A DNA stretch of 39,234 nucleotides from positions 1-39,234 of the forward strand of contig JWZX01002561.1 in assembly GCA_001275005.1 (NCBI GenBank), written 5' to 3'. Shown piece by piece: positions 1,877-34,926 of the stretch. Numbering within the stretch: position 1 is the stretch's first letter; each line of letters opens with the position of its first letter. Under the pieces are notes generated by a model, which saw only the letters and a program-made list of their open reading frames with translations, was not told the origin of the DNA and did no database searches. The DNA is from Chrysochromulina tobinii (lineage: Eukaryota > Haptophyta > Prymnesiales > Chrysochromulinaceae). The translations under genes were made by a program, and so were the position numbers.

Positions 1877-2133
1877 TGTGGGACAAGTGCTCGAGAAGGA
1901 AGAGAGTCTTTCCAAGGAAGGAATCCTTGTCTCGTTAGTTGAATCGACGGGACGCCGTTTCGAAACTCGCTGGGCTTTCCTCGGAAACAGCAAATTCAAG
2001 AGAGAAAAGGAATCCAGGCTCGAACCTTCCAGCACGACCGTCGAAGTGTTCACGGTCACGTTAAAGGCCTTTAAGTTGCCATTTCGGCAAGACGCACGAC
2101 CACCGTTCCCGTGGAGACGCACGACCACCGGCC
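1877..2133. promoter_or_regulatory. Bidirectional promoter region
   Basis: These 257 bp separate the start codons of the divergent oxidoreductase and PH-domain genes, so they should hold both promoters and 5' UTRs. The 10-mer TTTCGAAACT at 1958-1967 recurs in the divergent promoter at 26373-26382. No TATA box is obvious. This is an inference from gene arrangement. Confidence 0.4.
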
Positions 2134-5100
2134 ATGATTTCCGACACCGCGCGTGCAGGCCTGGAGCTGCTCAAGGGCGGTGCCGTCGCCCTCAAGCACG
2201 GGAGAGCAGGGCAGCCGAAAGAGACCATCTTCACGCTCTCCGCCGACGAGAAAAGGCTCACTTGGGCGCCGATGCAGAAAAAGTCCATGCTCAAAAGCAT
2301 GGGCAGCTATGCGATCGGCAGCAGTAAGTCGGATGAGGATCGTCAAATGCGCCTGGCGGATGTCGTCGAGCTGCTCGTCGGTCGCGAGACGCCAATCTTC
2401 CAGCGAGCGGGCAATGACGCCGGCGGCAGCGAGCACCTCTCGCTCAGCCTCGTGCTCAGTGCCGCACAACGAAGTGCCGGGCGCGAGTCGCTCGACGTGT
2501 CGTTTGGCGAGGGCGGCGAAGAGACCTTTGGGCTGTGGGTGGCCGCGCTACGCCACTTGTTGAACAAGGGGAAACCCACTCAGTTGATCAGGGGCTCTTC
2601 GATGGCTTCCATGGAGCGGGTTGAGCCGCGGCCCGTTCCTGCCGAGGAGCCCCTGTTTACGCTGTCGCCGCAGCCGGTGGCTGTGTCGGCGCCGGCGAGC
2701 CCGGTCCCGGCACGCCCCAGCGAGTCTGCGCGGCCTGCCGATCCATTTCGCGGCCCTGGAGGTCTGATGGAAGACTTGATGCCCGGCGGCCCCATGGGTC
2801 TGCTCGGGACGACGCTGCTCGACAGCATGGTGCCTGACGGGTCAGGCCTGGGAGAGCTCCTCGACATGGCTGCGGGCGATGCGCTCATGTCCTCCGCGCG
2901 CGCGGCGGCGGCGATGGCGGGCACCTTATGTGCCATCGAGCAGATGCTCGCGGCCACGCACGCGGACCAGCTGCGCGCCGCCCTGAGCGAGGCACAGTCG
3001 ACGCCGGGGGTGCCCACCGAGGCACTCTCCCTCGCATCACGTCGGTTACTCGTGATGCAAGCGCCCGACGGCGGGCGGGAGGAGATGCAGGTGAGATGAG
3101 CTCGGATTGAGCCTCGGAATGCCTCTGACCACCCTCCGACGCGAGCGGGTGATTGCCTCTAATTGCCTCTAATTGCCTCGGATGGCTTCTGATTGCCTCT
3201 GACCACCCTCCGACGCGAGCGGGTCGAGGTGCAGATCCAGATCCAGATGGATATGAGCTCTAATTGCGCCTCGGATGGCTTATGATTGCCTCCAAATTGC
3301 CTCTGATTGCCTCTAATTGCCTCTGATTGCCTGGTGTGAGATGCAGATCCAGATGGCACTGCAGCAGATCATGTTCGAGACTAAGGGCAAGCTTGAGATG
3401 ATGGCGGCGCTGCAGGCGAAGCTCGAAGCGCTGCAAGGGGCGCAGGCGAGCATGGCTACTGATGGCTACTGATGTCTATTGATGGCCACTGACGTCTTTT
3501 GATGGCTACTGGTGGCTATTGATGGCTACTGATGTCTATTGATGGCTACTGATGGCTATTGATGGCTACTGATGACCACTTGATGGCCACTGATGGCTCC
3601 TGAGTGCCCCCTCGTCTATCAGGCACGCATGGCCTCTAATTGCCCCCTAATGGATTGCCTCTAATTGCCTCTAATTGCCTCGTTCATCAGGAACGCATGG
3701 CCGCTGAGAATGCGCAGCTGCGCGCGGCGGCGGCGGCGGGCGGCGGCCCACGCCGACCACGCCGAGCGAGCGCGAGTAAAGCGACCGGCCAGGAGGAGGA
3801 GGAGGAGGAGGAGGAGGAGGACGAGCAGGAGATATTTGATCGGGAGGCGCGCTTGGGTTATAAGAAGGCCAAGGGGACGATCATGCAAGCTATCCTCGAT
3901 GGGCGCGTGGGCACGGCGGAGGAGTACCTTGAGCGTGATGTGCATCTGTTCAGGCTGGCCGATGCCGACTTGCAGCGCGAGTACAATTGGTATACGACCG
4001 TGTATCTCGGCGACGACACGCCGCCGCCGGTGTGTTCGATGGCCGAGAGGACCCTCATCAAGCGGATTGCTCCTGATTGCTCCTGATTGCTCGGTGTGTC
4101 CGATGGCCGAGAGGACCCTCATCAAGCTGATCGCTCCTAATTGCTGCTGATTGCCATGTTTGGCAGGTGCGTGGGATGGCCGAGATGACCCTCATCAAGC
4201 TGGGTGAGGTCGTCGATAAGCCGCAGCGGATCCGCATCCGGTAGTGACGACCACTGATTGCGTCTGATTGCGTCTGATTGCGTCTGATTGCGTTCGATTG
4301 CGTCTGATTGCGTCTGATTGCGTCTGATTGCGTCTGATCCGTCGCGGCTCTCTCGTGTGAACAGTCTGATCGAGAGGCAAGCTGAAGAAGCCAAGGCCGC
4401 TAGGGAGGCTCGTGAGCGCGAGAATGCCAAGAATGCGCAGGAGCGCGAGCTGCGCCACAAGCAGAACCGGATGAACCAGGCGGCGTATGACGAGTGCCGC
4501 GCGCGATGGCTGCCGCTGCTCGCGCACATGGAGGAGGACGCCCTGATGGCCGTCCTAAGTGACGCCGAGCGAACGCTTGCACGCCGCGTGAGCCATCGAG
4601 CCGAGCTTAAGCTTGTGGTCATCACCTTGGACGAGGTGCGCAAGATGCCGCCGGGCCGATTCACCGCGATGGGCACCTCGGGCCTCAAGCCGACGGAGAT
4701 GCGCGCGGTGCTCTACGCGATCCACCAGGCCAGCCCCCCCAGCGCGAGCGCGATGCAATTCGGCGCGATGCTCGGAGTCAAGGTGGCGCAATTAGCCGAC
4801 TTTGAGCCGGCGCCCGAGACGGCGCCCGAGACGGCGCCCGAGACGACGCCCGAGACGGCGCCGGTACCGCAGGCCATGCCCGCAGAGGAGCAGGCGCCCG
4901 GCACAGCGCCTCCAGCGCCAGCCCGGCCTCCCCGCCCGCCACCCTGCCCGCCGCCCATGCCGCCACCCATGCCGCCCCCCAAGCCAGCGACCCCCAAGCC
5001 GCAGTCGCCATCGGCGGTGGGAAGCGACAGTCGCACCGCTCTGCTCGACGCAATCAAGGCAGGCGCGGGAGGTCTCAAGAAGGCAGCGGACCGCACCGCA

Positions 5101-14542: not shown

Positions 14543-15682
14543 ATGGCCGAGTCAATGCAGCCTCGCGGGATGGTGAACACGGGCGTGACGTGCTACCTCA
14601 ACTCGGCGATGCAGGCGCTCGCCAGCTGCTCGGCGCTCGCCGAGGTGCTGCACACGGCGAGCCCAGTGCTGGAGCTTCCCACGGCGCAGCACCAGACGAA
14701 GACGGACCTCGCGCGGCAGTTCGAGGACGTCTTCCAGGAGCTGCGCAATGGCGGGCAGCCGGGTGCGCGCCCGGTCCAGACCCATGACTTTGTGCTCGCA
14801 GTGCACGGCCTGACGCGTGCTCTGGAGGGCTTACACCAGCAGCAGGACACGCAGGAGTTTGTGTGCGCGCTGCTCGACACGCTGCACGAGCAGCTCAAGC
14901 GGCCGCTCTCGGAGCACGAGCTGGAAGAGATGCGCAACCGCCTCAAGCGCCGCTGGCGCGAGTGCACCGGCGAGGAGTGGCAAGACGAGGCGCAGCTCGC
15001 GTACGAGGAGCAACTCAAGAAGCGGCAAGAAGGCAAGGGCAAGCGGGACGATGGCATCGCGATGGCGGCGGGCCTCCCGCCGCCACCGCGCCCGCACATG
15101 TCGATCATCTCGCACCTCTTCGAGGGTGCGCAGCAGCGCGCCCCGCCGCCAACCGTCCACGCCGCCCGCCCACGCCTCCTCTACCCGCCTGTGCGGACCT
15201 TCCTCGCTGTGCGGACCTTCCTGATTTGGGCATGCACGCCCTCCCGCACGCACTTGCATGCACGCACTTGCTCACGCCGCGCTCGCTCCCCACGCCCCAC
15301 AGGCCAATTGCTCTCCCGGGTCACGTGCTGCGGCTGCTCCAGCCACTCTTGGACCGCGGACCCCTTCCTGTCTCTCTCACTGCCGCTGCCGAAGACCAAG
15401 CATCCGCCGCCGCCGCCGCCGCCGCCGTACGCCTACATGCCGATGGCCGACTACGCGACGACGAGTGCCCACGGCGGCGCGTCCGACGACTCGATGGATG
15501 TGGATGAGTCCACATTAGGAAGTACGAGCGGCAGTGCGAGGGGCTCAGGCGCGGCGGAGACGCCTCAGGCCAAGGCGCCGCGCAGCAGCTCGATTAGCTC
15601 ATGGCTCACTTCGTCCTTCCGCCTACCCTCCGCCTTGGGCCTCACTTCCAGCCGCGCCAGCGCCGGCGGTGTCAACGGCGAT

Positions 15683-15724
<42 letters not shown>

Positions 15725-17980
15725 TCCGACATGCGCGGCAGCTATCGAGGAGGCGAGAGCGGTTTCACACTGCATGACGCGCTGTGCGAGTTCTTCGCCG
15801 AGGAGACGATCGCGGGCGACGACTCGTACCGATGCGAAAAGTGCAAGGCGCTGCGAAAAGCGACCAAGGTCCTTCGCCTCTCTCCTCCGCCCCTCCCCTC
15901 CCCTCGTGCATGCAAGTGCTAACCACGGCGCCGCCACTTCCCCTCAGGTCCTTCGCATCCTCAACTCGCCTCCCCTCCTCTGCGTCCATCTCAAGCGCTT
16001 CTCGTTTGACAAGCGCGCGGGCAAGGCGGGCGGGCGCGTCGCCTTCCCACTCGAGGGCCTCTCGCTTGCTCAATTCGACGCTGCCGCCAAAGCAGCGCCC
16101 ACTACAGCGCCCACTACAGCGCCCACTCCCGCAACCTCCTCCCGCAGCGCCAAGGCCGAAGCGAGCGCTGTATCGGGCGCATCGTCCTCCCACGCGGACG
16201 CGCCCGCCAGCGCGAGCCGTTACCCGCCGAGCCGTTTCCCGCCGAGCCAACGCGGCGGGGGCACCCACTGCCTGTACGACCTGTGCGCAGTCATAGTCCA
16301 CCACGGACAGGTGAGGGCCTCTCTGTGCTGACTCCTCTGTGATGCCCTCTCTGATTGCGTCTCTGATTGCGTCTCTGATTGTGTCTCTGATTGCGTCTCT
16401 GATTGCGTCCCTCATCAGTCGCTGAGCCACGATTGCGTCTCTGATTGCGTCCCTCATCAGTCGCTGAGCCACGGGCACTACACGGCCTTCGTACGCCACC
16501 CGTCGGGGGAGTGGTATCACATCGATGACACGAACGTCACCCTGGTGGGGCCAGCCGAGGTCGCCGCCGCCGAGGCATACCTATTGTTCTACGAGCGCCG
16601 CCAAGACCCGCGCTGGAAGGAGCAGCGCCGTCAGGTACTGATTGCATGCTGATTGCCTCTCTCATCAGGAGGAGCTCGGATTGCATGCGGCTGATGGCCT
16701 CTCATCAGGAGGAGCTCGGATTGCTGATTACCTCTCTCATCAGGAGGAGCTCGGATTGCATGCGGCTGATGGCCTCTCTCATGGCATGCTCATTGCCTCC
16801 CCATGGTAGGTGATCGCCGAGGTCGAGGCGTTCACACTCGGCGTTCACACGTCCAAGTCCGGCGGCCGTGCTGATGGCTCGACGGTCCTCTTATCGAAAG
16901 CATGGTGGGCGCCCGTTATCAGGCCTCTGATGACCGTTGATGAGCTCTGATTGCCTCCCTCATCAGTCGAAAGCATGGTGGGGGGCCTTCATCAGGCCTC
17001 CCCACCACGGCGCATGCAAGTGCTCACCACGGCGCTCTCGCCTCCCCACAGGTGGGCTCGGTATAAGGCCTGCGACGACCCCGGGCCGGTGACGCACGCG
17101 GACGTGCTCTGTGCGCACAACTGCGTCGACACGCACCACAACCGTAGCGTCGAGGCCTCGCGCCGCTGCTTCATGGACTTGCCACGCCCCGTGTAATTGC
17201 ATGCTGATTGCCTCTCTCATTGCATGCTGATTGGATGCCTCGCGCCGCTGCTTCATGGACTGGCCACGCCCCGTGTAATTGCATGCTGATTGCCTCTCTC
17301 ATTGCATGCTGATTGCTGCTTCATGGACTGGCCACGCCCCGTGTACGCACGCCTCACCGAGCAGCTCCACTCGCCTCCCCTCGCGCATGCAAGTGCTCAC
17401 CACGGCGCCCTCCCCTCCTCCCCACAGGTACTTTCGCCTCACCGAGCAGTTCTGCTACGGCGACGGCCCGGCGTACCAACTGCCGGCTGCCCAGCTGATA
17501 GAATGTCCTAAGTGCAAGCAGACGCATAAGGCAGAGGCGCGCGCCCTGCAGGACGAGCGTGACGAAATCCGAAGGCTCGACTCGACGGAGATCTCGGAGG
17601 GTGGCATCTGGTACATCGTGGACGCGAACTGGCTCACTCGCCTCCCCCCCTCGCGCATGCAAGTGCTCATCACGGCGCCTTCGCCTCCTCACAGGTACAT
17701 CGTGGACGCGAACTGGCTCAAGCATTGGCGCGAGTACTGCTGGGATAGTATTCGACCTGACCCGCCCGGCCCCGTGAGTAACTGGCGGCTCCTCGCGCCG
17801 AGCAAGATGCCGCGCCAGCACCTGCAGCGCGCCACTGATTACCGAGGCGTTAACGAAAAGGTGTGGCAAGTCTTTGTGGAACGGTATGGGGGCGGCCCGC
17901 CCATTTGCCGCGCCAAGCTCGACATCTATGCCCCTCCCGTGCCGCCCCCCGACCTCTCCGCCCCGTCGCGCCGCCGATGA
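14543..17980 (+). CDS. Ubiquitin-specific protease with DUSP domains (USP48-like), eight exons
   Basis: Exons 14543-15125, 15303-15868, 15948-16310, 16461-16634, 16810-16904, 17052-17192, 17428-17610 and 17695-17980 join in frame to 796 aa. The cysteine protease core starts almost at the N-terminus: Cys box [13 protein letters not shown] (Cys17), QQQDTQEF, zinc-ribbon-like CCGC (203-206) and CEKC (372-375), [20 protein letters not shown], then the His box GHYTAFVR (H510) with [10 protein letters not shown] and AYLLFYERR. The core is interrupted by a polyPro and a 14-Ala insert. After it come DUSP-type modules: [24 protein letters not shown], then [15 protein letters not shown] and [16 protein letters not shown]. 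All catalytic boxes are present, so it should be an active deubiquitinase. Start ATG 14543 fits family length. Introns carry direct repeats of flanking exons; see the separate entries. Confidence 0.88.
15126..15302 (+). repeat. USP intron 1, possible divergent introner-like copy, stop-free
   Basis: Donor G|GTGCGC, acceptor CCCCACAG|GCC. It is 177 bp, divisible by three and without in-frame stops, so retention would add 59 residues. GTGCGGACCTTCCT occurs twice. Near the 3' end GCATGCACGCACTTGCTCAC recalls the 23-bp core of the other introns but is degenerate. Confidence 0.55.
15869..15956 (+). repeat. USP intron 2 (15869-15947), introner-like family A
   Basis: The intron starts GTCCTTCGC, the same 9 bp that start exon 3 at 15948. 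The shared core is at 15908-15930 and contains TGCTAAC, a match to the branch-site consensus, followed by a pyrimidine-rich tract and CCCCTCAG. Length 79 bp. Confidence 0.85.
16311..16473 (+). repeat. USP intron 3 (16311-16460), GATTGCGTCT array with duplicated acceptor
   Basis: The intron is mostly CTCTGATTGCGT units. A 42-bp unit comprising GATTGCGTCC, CTCATCAG and the exon 4 start TCGCTGAGCCACG occurs twice, with candidate acceptors before 16419 and before 16461. Only the second leads into the open His-box exon. Confidence 0.8.
16635..16809 (+). repeat. USP intron 4, three internal CATCAGGAGGAGCTCGGATTGC copies
   Basis: Three copies of an acceptor-like segment (TCATCAG followed by GAGGAGCTCGGATTGC) lie between donor CAG|GTACTG and acceptor GGTAG|GTGATC. 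The copies look like remnants of repeated junction duplication. The source exon is not recognisable. Confidence 0.65.
16905..17051 (+). repeat. USP intron 5: family A element plus a duplicated donor junction
   Basis: The exon 5 end CGAAAGCATG|GTGGG occurs at the real junction (cut at 16904/16905) and again in the intron (cut at 16977/16978). Exon 6 starts GTGGG at 17052. The core is at 17012-17034. Splicing from either donor gives the same mRNA, with introns of 147 or 74 bp. Confidence 0.8.
17193..17427 (+). repeat. USP intron 6: family A element plus triplicated exon 6 end
   Basis: The exon 6 end (GCTGCTTCATGGACT, then GCCACGCCCCGT|GTA) occurs three times: at the junction before 17193, before ~17275 and before 17343. 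The third copy leads into GTACGCACGCCTCACCGAGCAG, a copy of the exon 7 start at 17428. The core is at 17385-17407. Any donor gives an in-frame mRNA; copy 1 codes Leu where copies 2 and 3 code Trp. Confidence 0.85.
17611..17720 (+). repeat. USP intron 7 (17611-17694), family A with a perfect 26-bp direct repeat
   Basis: 17611-17636 and 17695-17720 are identical over 26 bp, starting GTACATCGTGGACGCG. The first copy is the start of the intron, the second the start of exon 8. The core is at 17655-17677 (TGCTCAT variant). The intron is 84 bp, divisible by three and free of stops. Confidence 0.9.
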
Positions 17981-26534: not shown

Positions 26535-28864
26535 ATGAGCGGCGACATCGGCGGAGCGGAAGAGGACTCCGAGGAGGACCCGGAGTTCTCGCCCGACCTG
26601 GGCTTTAGCAGCGTCGCAAAGCCGCTCTCGTATCAGCACCCGCACGCGCACGTGAAGACGGAGATAGGGGACGCGTGCTTTGGCGTGCCGTACGGCGACG
26701 AGGATGATGAGGACGACGAGGACGAAGATGAGGGCGATTCCGACGCGCTGAGCGACGAGATCCGCTTCAGCCACGAGCGCTACTTCTCGCCGCGCCTGCA
26801 CGAGCTGCTGCGCGGCTCGGTCAAGGGCGGTGACCCTGCGTCGCACACGGGGCTACTCACGGGCGTGCGGCCGATGCTGCTGCACCAGAGCGACTCGCCA
26901 CATCCAGAGCGCCCCGCACGCCTCGTCGCCATCTACAATGAGCTCATCGAACGCGGGCTCGACGCGCGCTCGCGCCTGGTACCGGCGCGAGAGGCAAGCA
27001 CAGCTGACCTCGAGCTCGTGCACACGCCCGAGCAGGTGGCTAAGTCGACAGGGCTGTACCCGAGCGACGGCGCGGCGAGCGCGACACTCGGCCTCGACAG
27101 CGACACCTACTTCGCCGCAAGCGCCTCCGGGTACGCGGCCCGCCTCGCGGCAGGCTCCGTCGTCGAGCTGGTCACGCGAGTGGTGCACGGCGAGCTGCGG
27201 AATGCGCTCGCAGTGGTGCGTCCTCCAGGGCACCATTGCGAAGCGACGCAGGCGATGGGCTTCTGCCTGCTCAACAATGTGTGCGTGGCCGTCGCCGTCG
27301 CGCGCCGCCGCCTCGGGGTCCCCCGAGTCCTCGTCGTCGATTGGGATGTTCATCATGGCAACGGCGTGCAGGTGCGTCGATGGGGACCGCTGATGACCTC
27401 CCTCATCATAATCATGACCTGCCTGAACGCCTCATTGAACGCCTCTCTGAGAGTTGCCCTACTGACGGCCTCGCGACTGCAGAACATCTTTCGCGACGAC
27501 CCGACCGTCCTCTACGTATCGCTGCACAGGTGCACGCGGATTGCGCGCGGAGTGCACGCTGATTTCACGCTGATTGCACGCTGATTGCACGCTGATTGCA
27601 CGATGATTGCAGGATGATTGCACGACGATTGCACCCTGATTGCACCCTGATTGCACGCTGATTGCAGGATGATTGCACGACGATTGCACGCTGATTACCT
27701 CTTCGTATCGCTGCACAGGTACAGTCACGGCGCTGATGGATCCGACCCGCCCGCGGCGCCGGCTCGCATGCCGTTGTGTTCTTTCCGCGTCTGTGAAGGC
27801 TGCTGACTGGGCGTTCGCGTCTGTGATTGCTGTTTGACTGGCCGCTGAGTGGCGTCTGATGGCCTCCTTCTTCAGGTACGACCAACTCGCCGGGTCGGCG
27901 TCTGATTGCGTATGATTGCGTATGATCGCGTCTGATGGCCTCCTTCATCAGGTTCGGGCGTGGCTTCTATCCGGGGACAGGCCACCCCAGGGACGTGGGT
28001 GACGACGCGGGCGAGGGCACCTCAGTCAACGTCGCTTGGGAGCGCGGTGAAGGCTATTCCGATGCGGAGTACCTTGCCGCCTTCGATCGTCTCATCATGC
28101 CCATTGCGCGCGAGTACGCGCCCGAGCTCGTGATCGTCTCGGCCGGATTCGACGCTGCACGCGGCGATCCGCTTGGGGGTATGGGCCCGGCGCCTCGATA
28201 TGGACTCGATGAGTGCTCCCGTCATCTCCCGATGATTAACTCCGTCATCACGGCGCCTCGATATGGACTCGATGAGTGCCCCTCGAATGGCGACAGCAAA
28301 TTGCTACACTCATTGCCTCCCTCCTCACTCTGATGACGTCGGATTGCGTCCTCGAGCCGGAGACGTAACGCCAGCCTGATGACGTCTGATTACCTCCCTC
28401 CTCACTCTGATGACGTCTGATTGCCCCCCTCCTCACTCTCATGACTTCTGATTGCCTCGCTCCTCACAGGAATGGACCTAACGCCGGCTGGCTACTTCCA
28501 CATGACCACTCTCCTCGGCACGCTAGCGGCCGGCCGTCTCGTCATCGCCCTCGAAGGCGGCTACAACCTGCGCTCGATTGCCGACTCGGCGGCCGCTGTC
28601 CATGCGAGCCTCCTCGGCGACCCACCGCCGCTCCTCATGCGCCGACCGCCGCGTCCGGAGGCTCTCGCCGACATCGAGGCCGCCGCGCGCGCGCTCGCGC
28701 CGTATTGGGCGTGCCTGCGCCCGCCGCCGCTCGCACGGCCAGCTCCAAAACGGGCGCGCGGTGCGCCCGCGGGCAACGCCCGGGACAGCGCCGGCGTGTA
28801 CAAGAAGAGCAAGGGAAGACGAGGTCGCCTGCACGGGCCGTGGTGGTATAGGTTCCTCTACTAG
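26535..28864 (+). CDS. Class II histone deacetylase (HDA1/HDAC6-like), four exons
   Basis: Exons 26535-27371, 27483-27529, 27952-28178 and 28470-28864 join in frame to 501 aa. After an acidic N-terminus (DEDDEDDEDEDEG, ~55-67) the deacetylase domain starts near 105: SPHPERPARL, RPPGHHCEATQAMGFCLLNN (charge-relay His 233-234), VVDWDVHHGNGVQ (zinc ligands D271, H273), then VLYVSLH|RFGRGFYPGTG across a splice, VSAGFDAARGDPL|GGMDLTPAGY across another, and ALEGGYN with the catalytic Tyr. All zinc and catalytic residues appear present, so it should be an active lysine deacetylase, on histones or tubulin-like substrates. The C-terminus is basic (PAPKRARG, YKKSKGRRGR) and may be a nuclear signal. The splices are strongly supported by motif continuity. 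Confidence 0.9.
27530..27951 (+). repeat. HDAC intron 2: GATTGCACG array with a copy of the exon 2 end
   Basis: The exon 2 end CGTATCGCTGCACAG|GT is repeated inside the intron at about 27704-27720. Between lies an array of ~12 GATTGCACGCT/GATTGCAGGAT units. Further on, TTCTTCAG|GTACGACC (~27880) precedes a short open stretch starting with Tyr-Asp, then the used acceptor TTCATCAG|GTTCGG (27952). Confidence 0.75.
28179..28469 (+). repeat. HDAC intron 3: tandem segments
   Basis: A ~28-bp segment, GGCGCCTCGATATGGACTCG then ATGAGTGC, occurs near 28188 and 28252. Further on, ~32-bp units with CTGATGACGTCTGATTGCC and TCCCTCCTCAC repeat to the acceptor CCTCACAG|GA. Confidence 0.7.
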
Positions 28865-33373: not shown

Positions 33374-34926
33374 GTGAGGAATCCAGGGCGGGCGTACAAC
33401 CCAGCTGGCATTGACGAGGACCACCTCCTCATGCGCGTGGACCCGCTGGATGACGGTTACGTGTTGCCAAGGTTTCACCACTTTGTGTGGTTCGAGCGTG
33501 GCCAGCTCGCCGGCTCCCACAGCGGCTGCGACGCGCGCGGGATCTGGCTGGACCAGTACACCCTCCTTGCCGTGTACAATGAGATGACGATCTTCCCACA
33601 TTACAAGCAGGGAGACCCCCTCTACCCTGGCTCCGGCAACAATCGGGTGCACATGTACGCGCTGAACCTGAGCGCCGGCAAGCACACCCGACCAATCCAG
33701 CTGAAGCTCGTGGGCCTACCGTCCCAAGTTTGGGAGAAGAACTGGGCTCCGTTCGTGCACAATGGCGAGCTGTTCATGAGCTACAAGCTCCGGCCGCAAC
33801 ACCTCGTCCTCCGCTGCAAGTTGAGTGCCGTAGTACCGGGCGCAGCGCCCCCCGAGGTACCGCAAGGCCCTGGGGATTGTCGCGTGGCGCATGCAAGTGC
33901 TCACCACGGCGCGTCCTCCCCTTTCCCCACAGGTGCCGCAAGGCCCTGGGGATTGTAGCGTGGCGTTCAACACGACGAGCCCCGACACGATGTGGGCGCA
34001 GGCCGTCGACCACATCGTGTCGAACGTGCGCTTGTCGACGCCGCCGATGCTCGTCGATGGACGTTTCATCGCGGTCATGCACTACGAGCCCATACTTGGC
34101 ATGTACGAACACTCTTGATTGCATCTGATTGCATCTGATTGCCTGCATCTTCAGCCTCGCGAGCTCGCACTCCGAGCCCATACTTGGCACTCACGAGCAC
34201 TCTTGATGGCCACACTGATGAGGTCTGATTGCCTCCATCATCAGGTACGAGCACGCCTTCTACGAGATGCAAGCCGAGCCGCCCTTCGCCATCCTTCGCA
34301 CCTCGAGACCGTTTCGGCTCTCGGACGCGGGCCTCGCCGTGCCCAAAGTTGCACGCCAGAACGGCGCGACCTTTGAACGTGATAAGGGCGTTCAGTACAT
34401 CGTCGGGCTCCACCTCGAGAGGAATTCGTCAAACGACGGCGCTCAGCACGGCGCGAGCGGCGGCCGTCACGATAGCCGACGCGTCACGATGACGTACGGC
34501 TTGATGAACCACTATAGTATGAAGACCTCCATCCAGCTGGGTACCATCTACCGTATGCTCGCCGACAGTGAGGCCGACCCCGCCCGGTACCGCTCCTGCT
34601 TGGTCTCGACGAGGGGCGATGGGCAGTGCCGTGAATCCAATTGCCGAAGCCCCGACACACCGTCCAAGTTTGTGAATCCGCATGCGCCGGAGCGCGGGGT
34701 GAGCCAGTTCGTGAGCCCGCACAGAGGGGGCCACCCGATCACACCCGAAGACGTCAAGCTGGCCATCTGCCCGAACCTGTGCACGAAGTACAATTACGAG
34801 TGCAATGATGTCAAGAGCATGCAGCGCGCTCTGAAGCTGGATCGGTCCGAGGGGGGCACCGAGGTGGCTTTCTACAGCCATGCCGCCACTCAGTTTGAGA
34901 GGTTGCTCGCGGGCGACCAGGGATGA
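33374..34926 (+). CDS. GH130-like five-bladed beta-propeller protein (putative glycoside hydrolase/phosphorylase), 5' end uncertain
   Basis: Segments 33374-33856, 33933-34102 and 34245-34926 join in frame to about 444 aa. Motifs include YNPAGIDEDHLLMRV, an LLAVYNEM strand, VWEKNWAPFVHNGELFMSY (an EKNW-type motif seen in GH130-related propellers and in eukaryotic relatives), then TPPMLVDGRFIAVMHYE and YIVGLHLE strands. This suggests cleavage or phosphorolysis of a beta-linked oligosaccharide, or glycan modification in the secretory path; catalytic residues were not assigned. A Cys-containing C-terminal region (ICPNLCTKYNYEC) may be a separate module. The start lies upstream in an unplaced exon; the first in-frame ATG here (33431) would cut the first blade. 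Both introns show exon-copy repeats. The next gene begins about 240 bp downstream. Confidence 0.6.
33857..33965 (+). repeat. Family A introner-like intron (33857-33932) with a 33-bp direct repeat
   Basis: The intron starts with a 33-bp sequence (GTACCGCAAGGCCCTGGGGA onward) that matches the exon start at 33933-33965 with two differences. The core is at 33889-33911, identical to USP copies in its central part. The intron is 76 bp and ends TTTCCCCACAG. Confidence 0.9.
34086..34260 (+). repeat. Intron 34103-34244 with duplicated exon end and GATTGC units
   Basis: The exon end plus donor (GAGCCCATACTTGGCATGTA, then CGAACACTCTTGAT) recurs inside the intron near 34170-34205 with a few changes. The intron begins GTACGAACAC, matching the next exon start GTACGAGCAC at 34245. 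GATTGCATCT and GATTGCCTCC units precede the acceptor CATCATCAG. Confidence 0.8.

Follow-up and report, generated by a model that had tools for sequence, protein, structure and literature searches.

A large family of Chrysochromulina tobinii introns shares a 23-bp branch-site core and appears to borrow donors from duplicated exon sequence

The origin of new introns in bulk is an old question. It is raised here by a ubiquitin-specific protease (USP) gene of the haptophyte Chrysochromulina tobinii, four of whose introns share a 23-bp core. The gene lies on contig JWZX01002561.1, of which we analysed a stretch of 39,234 nucleotides (the window; contig C1410 of the 2,253 contigs, 53.15 Mb in total, that make up the genome searched). 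The original prediction for this locus was that an element brings a branch site and an acceptor, while the donor is co-opted from a duplicated copy of the next exon's start. Here, we show that the core belongs to a real, large and unusual intron-generating system. The mechanism of insertion stays between a repair-like local copying process and a retroposon.

The predicted cores are present in USP introns 2, 5, 6 and 7 (that of intron 7 with one mismatch), and each is followed by a pyrimidine tract and CAG (Table 1). The next exon begins with GT in all four cases; elsewhere, GC donors also occur. The window holds five cores in total, the fifth being in another gene. Rfam families had no match in the window, and no tRNAs were found there. 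At intron 6, the exon end GCTGCTTCATGGACTKGCCACGCCCCGTGTA is present in three copies (window 17165-17345), two of them inside the intron, as if insertion had recurred at one site.

Table 1. Positions of the USP gene, its core-bearing introns and related features in the window.
Feature	Position	Strand	Remarks
USP gene	14543..17980	+	Start and stop codons by eye; Pfam UCH 5.9e-9 and DUSP 1.1e-17 on spliced models; P0213 match
Intron 2, 79 nt	15869..15947	+	Begins with 9-bp copy of next exon start 15948-15956
Core in intron 2, GCATGCAAGTGCTAACCACGGCG	15908..15930	+	
First copy of 16-bp repeat TCGAAAGCATGGTGGG	16894..16909	+	Second copy 16967-16982; around the TGATTGC-type unit of intron 5; by eye
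Intron 5, 147 nt, composite (TGATTGC-type unit plus core-type unit)	16905..17051	+	Spliced model versus P0213
Core in intron 5	17012..17034	+	
Intron 6, 235 nt, composite	17193..17427	+	Two further copies of the upstream exon end plus core-type unit; spliced model and P0213
22-bp copy (3 mismatches) of next exon start 17428-17449	17343..17364	+	Inside intron 6
Core in intron 6	17385..17407	+	
Intron 7, 84 nt	17611..17694	+	
Perfect 26-bp copy of next exon start 17695-17720	17611..17636	+	Supplies donor GT
Core in intron 7	17655..17677	+	One mismatch
Predicted intron of another gene, 76 nt	33857..33932	+	32-bp repeat with 2 mismatches; second copy 33933-33964
Core in predicted intron of another gene	33889..33911	+	

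The core recurs throughout the genome. We detected 503 copies with one position left free (251 forward and 252 reverse) and 2,333 copies with at most three mismatches (1,126 and 1,207 on the two strands), while a reversed-pattern control gave none at either stringency. For the 23-mer with at most three mismatches, the expectation from shuffles is 0.00. Cores occur in USP, EMP70, JmjC, SNF2 and DSPc genes (Pfam on spliced models); thus, similar introns are found in non-paralogous genes. This is one element of the definition of introners (Gozashti 2022); the part that the introns have in common is their 3′ portion only.

Intron-like copies of the core have a common anatomy. We ran an HMM of the core over the window and about 286 kb of loci that partly overlap, the sample being made up of first-listed contigs and places with an exact core, plus neighbours. 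This gave 147 unique core-like matches, 122 of them with at most five mismatches. A pyrimidine tract ending in AG and followed by G is present in 90 copies, or 83 when one is kept per exon start. The usual layout is an exonic repeat starting with GT, the core with its branch site, the pyrimidine tract, CCCCACAG, and then the exonic repeat again. Branch site, pyrimidine tract and AG all lie in the insert, as the prediction had it. The bases after the core are CC, CG or CT in 80 of the 83 copies, and the insert ends with TCCCCACAG in 64, with a variable tract in between. The 5′ edge of the insert is fairly sharp at GCATGC, the opposite edge less so. Microhomology at the 5′ junction is weak (mean 1.06 vs 0.52 nt in 16 copies).

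Most of these copies are flanked by long direct repeats. The first 50 nt of each exon were compared with the 110 nt preceding the core, with 1,660 mispaired controls from different contigs as the null. Scores exceeded the 99th percentile of the controls in 59 of the 83 copies (observed median 23; control 99th percentile 16, maximum 26), and in 53 the repeat is anchored within the first three bases of the exon. The anchored repeats are 19-50 bp long, with a median of 32 and a mean identity of 0.93; here 50 bp is the length compared and hence a ceiling, and a short repeat like that of intron 2 (9 bp) falls below the threshold. One anchored copy, whose flank was too short, was dropped, leaving 52 of 83 with an anchored repeat and 31 without.

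The donors of most copies are predicted from the repeat layout. Among the 52 anchored copies, the predicted intron is 63-93 nt long in 48 and 131-146 nt in four, and the predicted donor is GT in 42, GC in six and another dinucleotide in four. The proposed co-option of the donor from the duplication thus fits 48 of 52 copies, in which a GT or GC donor coincides with the start of the repeat; it fails for intron 6, as described below. A G precedes the predicted donor in 45 of 52 cases, compared with 35 of 159 other GTs. When a G at the exon start is not required, exons begin with GT in 68 cases, GC in eight and other bases in eight (GT or GC in 76 of 84). Intron lengths are not biased towards multiples of three (15 of 52 anchored). 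The length class 3n+2 is in excess (28 of 52 anchored introns, p 0.002), which perhaps reflects selection for a frameshift on retention.

The core-bearing segments appear to be removed by splicing. When USP exons 16810-16904, 17052-17192, 17428-17610 and 17695-17979 are joined, they match the public protein P0213 at 233 of 234 residues with no gaps. Introns 5-7 are absent from this protein, and the unspliced DNA across them has stops in all three frames. P0213 comes from a JGI contig of 1,113 nt with 13 member sequences that is not labelled as RNA; it seems less likely that this contig is a DNA copy missing three introns at once. The protein begins exactly at the exon after intron 4, so it is uninformative on introns 2 to 4.

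P0213 also bears on which donors are used. It points directly to a borrowed donor for intron 7 and weakly to one for intron 5. At intron 6 it reads FMDLPRPV, which is encoded by the first of the three exon-end copies only. This places the start of intron 6 at 17193, the outer donor, and means that the repeated donor at 17343 is not the outer donor of this intron. Each of the four introns had been predicted to begin with a copy of 9 to 26 bp of the next exon's start. Such copies are present for intron 2 (9 bp, or 11 with a shared AG), intron 6 (22 bp, three mismatches) and intron 7 (26 bp, perfect), while intron 5 has only 6 bp (GTGGGC). Introns 2 and 7 do begin with their copy; that of intron 6, at 17343-17364, lies inside the intron.

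Protein domains span predicted junctions in several genes. Ten spliced models were picked by eye from 52, and in seven of them a Pfam match above the cut-off crosses the junction (EMP70, CRAL_TRIO, DSPc, JmjC, UCH, SNF2 and Ion_trans), the Ion_trans match with only about 7 residues on one side. A DUSP match begins 2 residues before the junction. Two models are no test of their junctions, because the EF-hand match, which is below the cut-off, ends before the junction and the oxygenase fragment is cut there. For EMP70, 116 of 120 relatives (120 listed of 1,685 found) are gap-free across the junction. In the USP gene, the UCH stretch 96-230 spans the junction of intron 2 at residue 110, a junction that lies outside P0213. 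We hold the borrowed-donor splicing logic with high confidence, which is somewhat reduced because P0213 implies an outer donor for intron 6.

The perfect 26-bp repeat at intron 7 had been taken to suggest a recent insertion. P0214, P0217 and P0219, which in the alignment are 93%, 78% and 78% identical to P0213, respectively, likewise carry intron 7 together with its core and the two copies of the repeat. Thus, the repeat is no sign of recency, and intron 7 is probably older than the splits of these lineages. P0215 retains the end of intron 6 and is without intron 7; this is either an RNA that was spliced in part or an empty site. In P0093 the reading continues uninterrupted through the EMP70 intron, core included. 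The EMP70 gene of a relative, P0096, has no insert at our site, which suggests a gain here or a loss there, and carries a different, apparently unspliced insert about eight codons downstream. For one protein, the closest named relatives include Polarella glacialis (65%), Prymnesium parvum (65%) and Phaeocystis antarctica (64%).

Further collections, which may omit records of the same genome, gave little. The core had no match in the genome_contigs collection, and P0213 had none among phage records. In IMG/VR the core was found in one contig only, at its extreme end. The end of this contig (L081, 4230-4554) carries core, tract and AG, and the remainder looks phage- or bacterium-like by eye; it is probably a chimeric join with other DNA.

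Not all cores sit in recognisable introns: 32 copies have no recognised acceptor. We defined an open-frame set by a same-strand frame that stays open for at least 267 codons, within an examined span of about 274, and a repeat score of at least 14, which gave 13 copies. Insert plus one repeat is a multiple of three in 11 of these 13 by the automatic call; reading the first member of each of two tandem pairs by core spacing (45 and 48) raises this to all 13. Among the other acceptor-less copies, the fraction is 5 of 17. The independent events number about eight, because several of the thirteen are tandem, and the open-frame criterion is weakened because both strands are often open in GC-rich DNA. 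In one of the thirteen (locus L075), the core is followed by a short CCACAG; this copy may be an intron. Another two, both in L054, lie in frames of this kind but were left out for weak repeats (periods 104 and 117).

None of the thirteen acceptor-less repeats starts with GT, and two start with GC. This suggests that the GT rule is a splicing filter and not an insertion preference. In three copies (L078 2166, L011 1261 and L073 2987), the repeat directly abuts the 23-bp core at either end, and the core by itself thus looks like the minimal unit. In core-only copies, the 3′ edge is close to the core end, and these copies look truncated on the CAG side.

Clusters and arrays of cores were also observed. 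Locus L078 (contig C343) holds about six separate acceptor-less core insertions at 2046-3370, on both strands, together with three diverged copies (two GCATGCAAGTGCTCGGCTTCTCG and one GCATGCAAGTGTTCGGCTCCTCG). On the minus strand of L001, at about 1824-1914, an 18-bp tandem array contains the second half of the core (GCTCACCACGGCG) and reads in one open frame as a repeated AHHGAD peptide. In L064 (3613-3854), four diverged cores 73 bp apart form a head-to-tail array with GT...AG units.

Similar repeats surround unrelated inserts. A second intron type, present at many loci, consists of tandem units of about 10 bp with TGATTGC or TGATGAC, often ending in CCTCATCAG; in the window it occurs at 3119-4338, 16312-16474, 16640-16809 and 27531-28467. 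In the analysed sequence, 37 cases of this type are flanked by direct repeats of 18-55 bp. We also scanned 210,912 non-redundant bases for direct repeats of at least 16 bp that lie at least 25 bp apart and share an exact seed. Such repeats surround 49 core spacers, 42 TGATTGC-type spacers and 59 other spacers, a class that includes ordinary tandem repeats, with median lengths of 23, 21.5 and 23 bp, respectively; one base-shuffled control had none. This speaks against the first proposal, in which the repeat is the target duplication of this one element, since repeats of similar length flank tandem-repeat and other insertions.

In the exact-seed scan, the second repeat copy starts at AG|GY in 24 of 49 core cases and in 6 of 42 TGAT-type cases; the first copy ends at this signal in 3 of 49 and 8 of 42, respectively. 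TGAT-type repeats have AG|GY at either edge in 14 of 42 cases and at neither edge in 28. Some TGATTGC-type introns use the borrowed-donor logic, and others its mirror image.

Neighbouring copies of the core resemble each other. A first test over whole contigs, on the pyrimidine tract only, was not significant (p 0.106). A distance-limited test on core variants plus tract gave p 0.0058, and on repeat 0.0048 (0-3 kb). Among pairs on one strand with different targets, core and tract are more alike than in permuted data for copies 150-3,000 bp apart (86 pairs, p 0.016) and at 150-1,500 bp (p 0.030), while copies 3-20 kb apart show no excess likeness (51 pairs, p 0.60). This evidence is to be held as moderate, because it comes from a second kind of test after the first had failed.

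As a whole, the data are best explained by the birth of spliceosomal introns through short duplicative insertion, an account, insertion step included, to which we give a modest measure of confidence. The 3′-end piece of an intron (core with branch site, variable pyrimidine tract and CCCCACAG) would be inserted into an exon, and about 20-40 bp of the target exon would be duplicated on both sides of it. With GT or GC at the start of this duplicated stretch, its left copy would become the donor; the insert would provide branch site and acceptor, and splicing would restore the mRNA. An insert without an acceptor would survive in coding DNA mainly when in frame.

The insertion step itself we infer, and a host repair-like process is the form of it that we tentatively favour. 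Fill-in of widely staggered breaks, or template switching, would copy short filler from nearby introns. We prefer such a process because unrelated fillers carry similar repeats and because copies within 3 kb are alike. Against it, near-identical cores in such number, above 2,000, resemble a mobile family more than random filler, and the fairly sharp GCATGC edge and the core-end edge of core-only copies suggest a defined unit. Also counting against the account as a whole are the 31 copies that have no anchored repeat, the donor outside the repeat that P0213 implies for intron 6, the limited share of repeats with AG|GY at an edge, the weak microhomology, the non-significant first test of locality and the ordinary tandem repeats among the other spacers. 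A broader and more speculative idea is that introns bud from their neighbours. General break repair or template switching, with staggers of about 20-40 bp, might copy nearby intron 3′ ends or tandem 10-mers into exons, after which splicing would select the flanks that start with GT or GC. The 23-bp core would then be a self-spreading intron seed without a transposase of its own, and possibly the smallest such seed known.

The main rival, which we regard as the less probable course, is a very short non-autonomous retroposon (SINE-like) that inserts by target-primed reverse transcription. The repeats would then be target-site duplications, and the reverse transcriptase and nuclease behind them would also mobilise the TGATTGC-type family. 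The repeats behave as LINE/SINE-type duplications in being variable in length, their similar lengths in the two families fit shared machinery, and the GCATGC edge is sharper than the other. The genome also has 26 RVT_1 matches, 22 of them over the cut-off. Nineteen lie in open frames of more than 1,000 aa; GC-rich DNA commonly has long frames. However, the local likeness of copies is not expected from a diffusing RNA, and no tail was seen. Target-site duplications of LINEs are usually 7-20 bp, shorter than the repeats here. Finally, no autonomous core-bearing element was found outside the RVT_1 loci.

A MITE-like DNA transposon, of the kind behind introners in Micromonas, Aureococcus and Symbiodinium, is improbable; the original prediction named the first two as having introners with this donor logic. 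The repeats are long and variable instead of short and of fixed length, no terminal inverted repeats were seen on inspection of the copies (GCATGCAAG... versus ...CCCCACAG), the middle is variable, and in most copies the insert measures about 23 to 50 bp. Nor do the introns share a 5′ end: similarity close to both splice sites is lacking, as the first part is target-derived and differs between copies.

Two further readings fare worse. Ordinary introns with a conserved branch-site context and chance repeats could be imagined, since the core contains a fair branch site (TGCTCAC) and the U2 snRNA of the genome matches Rfam well (134 bits), but such immobility is very hard to reconcile with repeats far above the mispaired controls, is contradicted for the 52 anchored copies, and leaves acceptor-less cores in open frames. 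An assembly or binning artefact, which the fragmented assembly might suggest, is scarcely credible, as core-bearing introns are also read in the public contigs P0214 (longest contig 51 kb), P0215, P0217, P0219 and P0093.

Published systems share parts of this pattern. The introners of Symbiodinium microadriaticum carry their 3′ splice site and recruit the 5′ splice site from the target-site duplication (Gozashti 2022, PMC9860276). They make introns in the same way and have many copies in unrelated genes; they have a 4-bp duplication and terminal inverted repeats, whereas the repeats here vary in length around a median of about 32 bp and no such inverted repeats were seen. Introner repeats in the same paper are 3-9 bp, far shorter than our 19-50 bp in the 53 anchored copies. 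Amoebophrya introners are likewise repeated introns with direct repeats at their boundaries in an aquatic protist (PMC7789003). Their direct repeats are 3-5 nt and their inverted repeats 8-20 nt long, and their splice sites are non-canonical, whereas here we find GT/GC-AG and see no inverted repeats.

Repair-like intron gain has also been described. New introns of Daphnia pulex are attributed to repair of staggered double-strand breaks, with repeats of 4-12 bp in 33 cases (PMC4202315). The repeats here are outside that range and much longer, and one filler is reused more than 2,000 times. The RdRp gene of potato gained an intron by tandem exon duplication (PMC4974935). There, as here, duplicated exon sequence joins the intron, but in our copies a foreign branch site and acceptor stand between the two duplicates. 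For fungal (stw)introns, intron copying via break repair, as filler, has likewise been proposed; the account in PMC8469720 has no flanking short tandem duplications, in contrast to the long ones here. In human and mouse cells, small tandem duplications arise from breaks whose 3′ overhangs are complementary (PMC8355091), and for intron borders in general a 2025 survey reports nearby direct repeats that are 4-30 bp long, with a mean of 11.4 (PMC11782384). Among open-licence PMC papers, we found no title or abstract reporting introner-like introns with repeats this long.

Earlier scans may have had this system within reach. This genome, or one like it, may be among the metagenome-assembled genomes already scanned. 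The scan of Gozashti 2022 demands similarity near both intron ends (PMC9860276). Such a filter would probably not group the introns described here, because their 5′ ends share nothing between copies. Introns with a target-derived 5′ part are thus probably a blind spot of scans of that design. In C. tobinii, thousands of insertions are present within a single genome, and their donor, insert and duplicated target are often legible. Those that keep the frame of an open reading frame may reveal the insertion step free of the splicing filter, so that insertion preference could be separated from selection.
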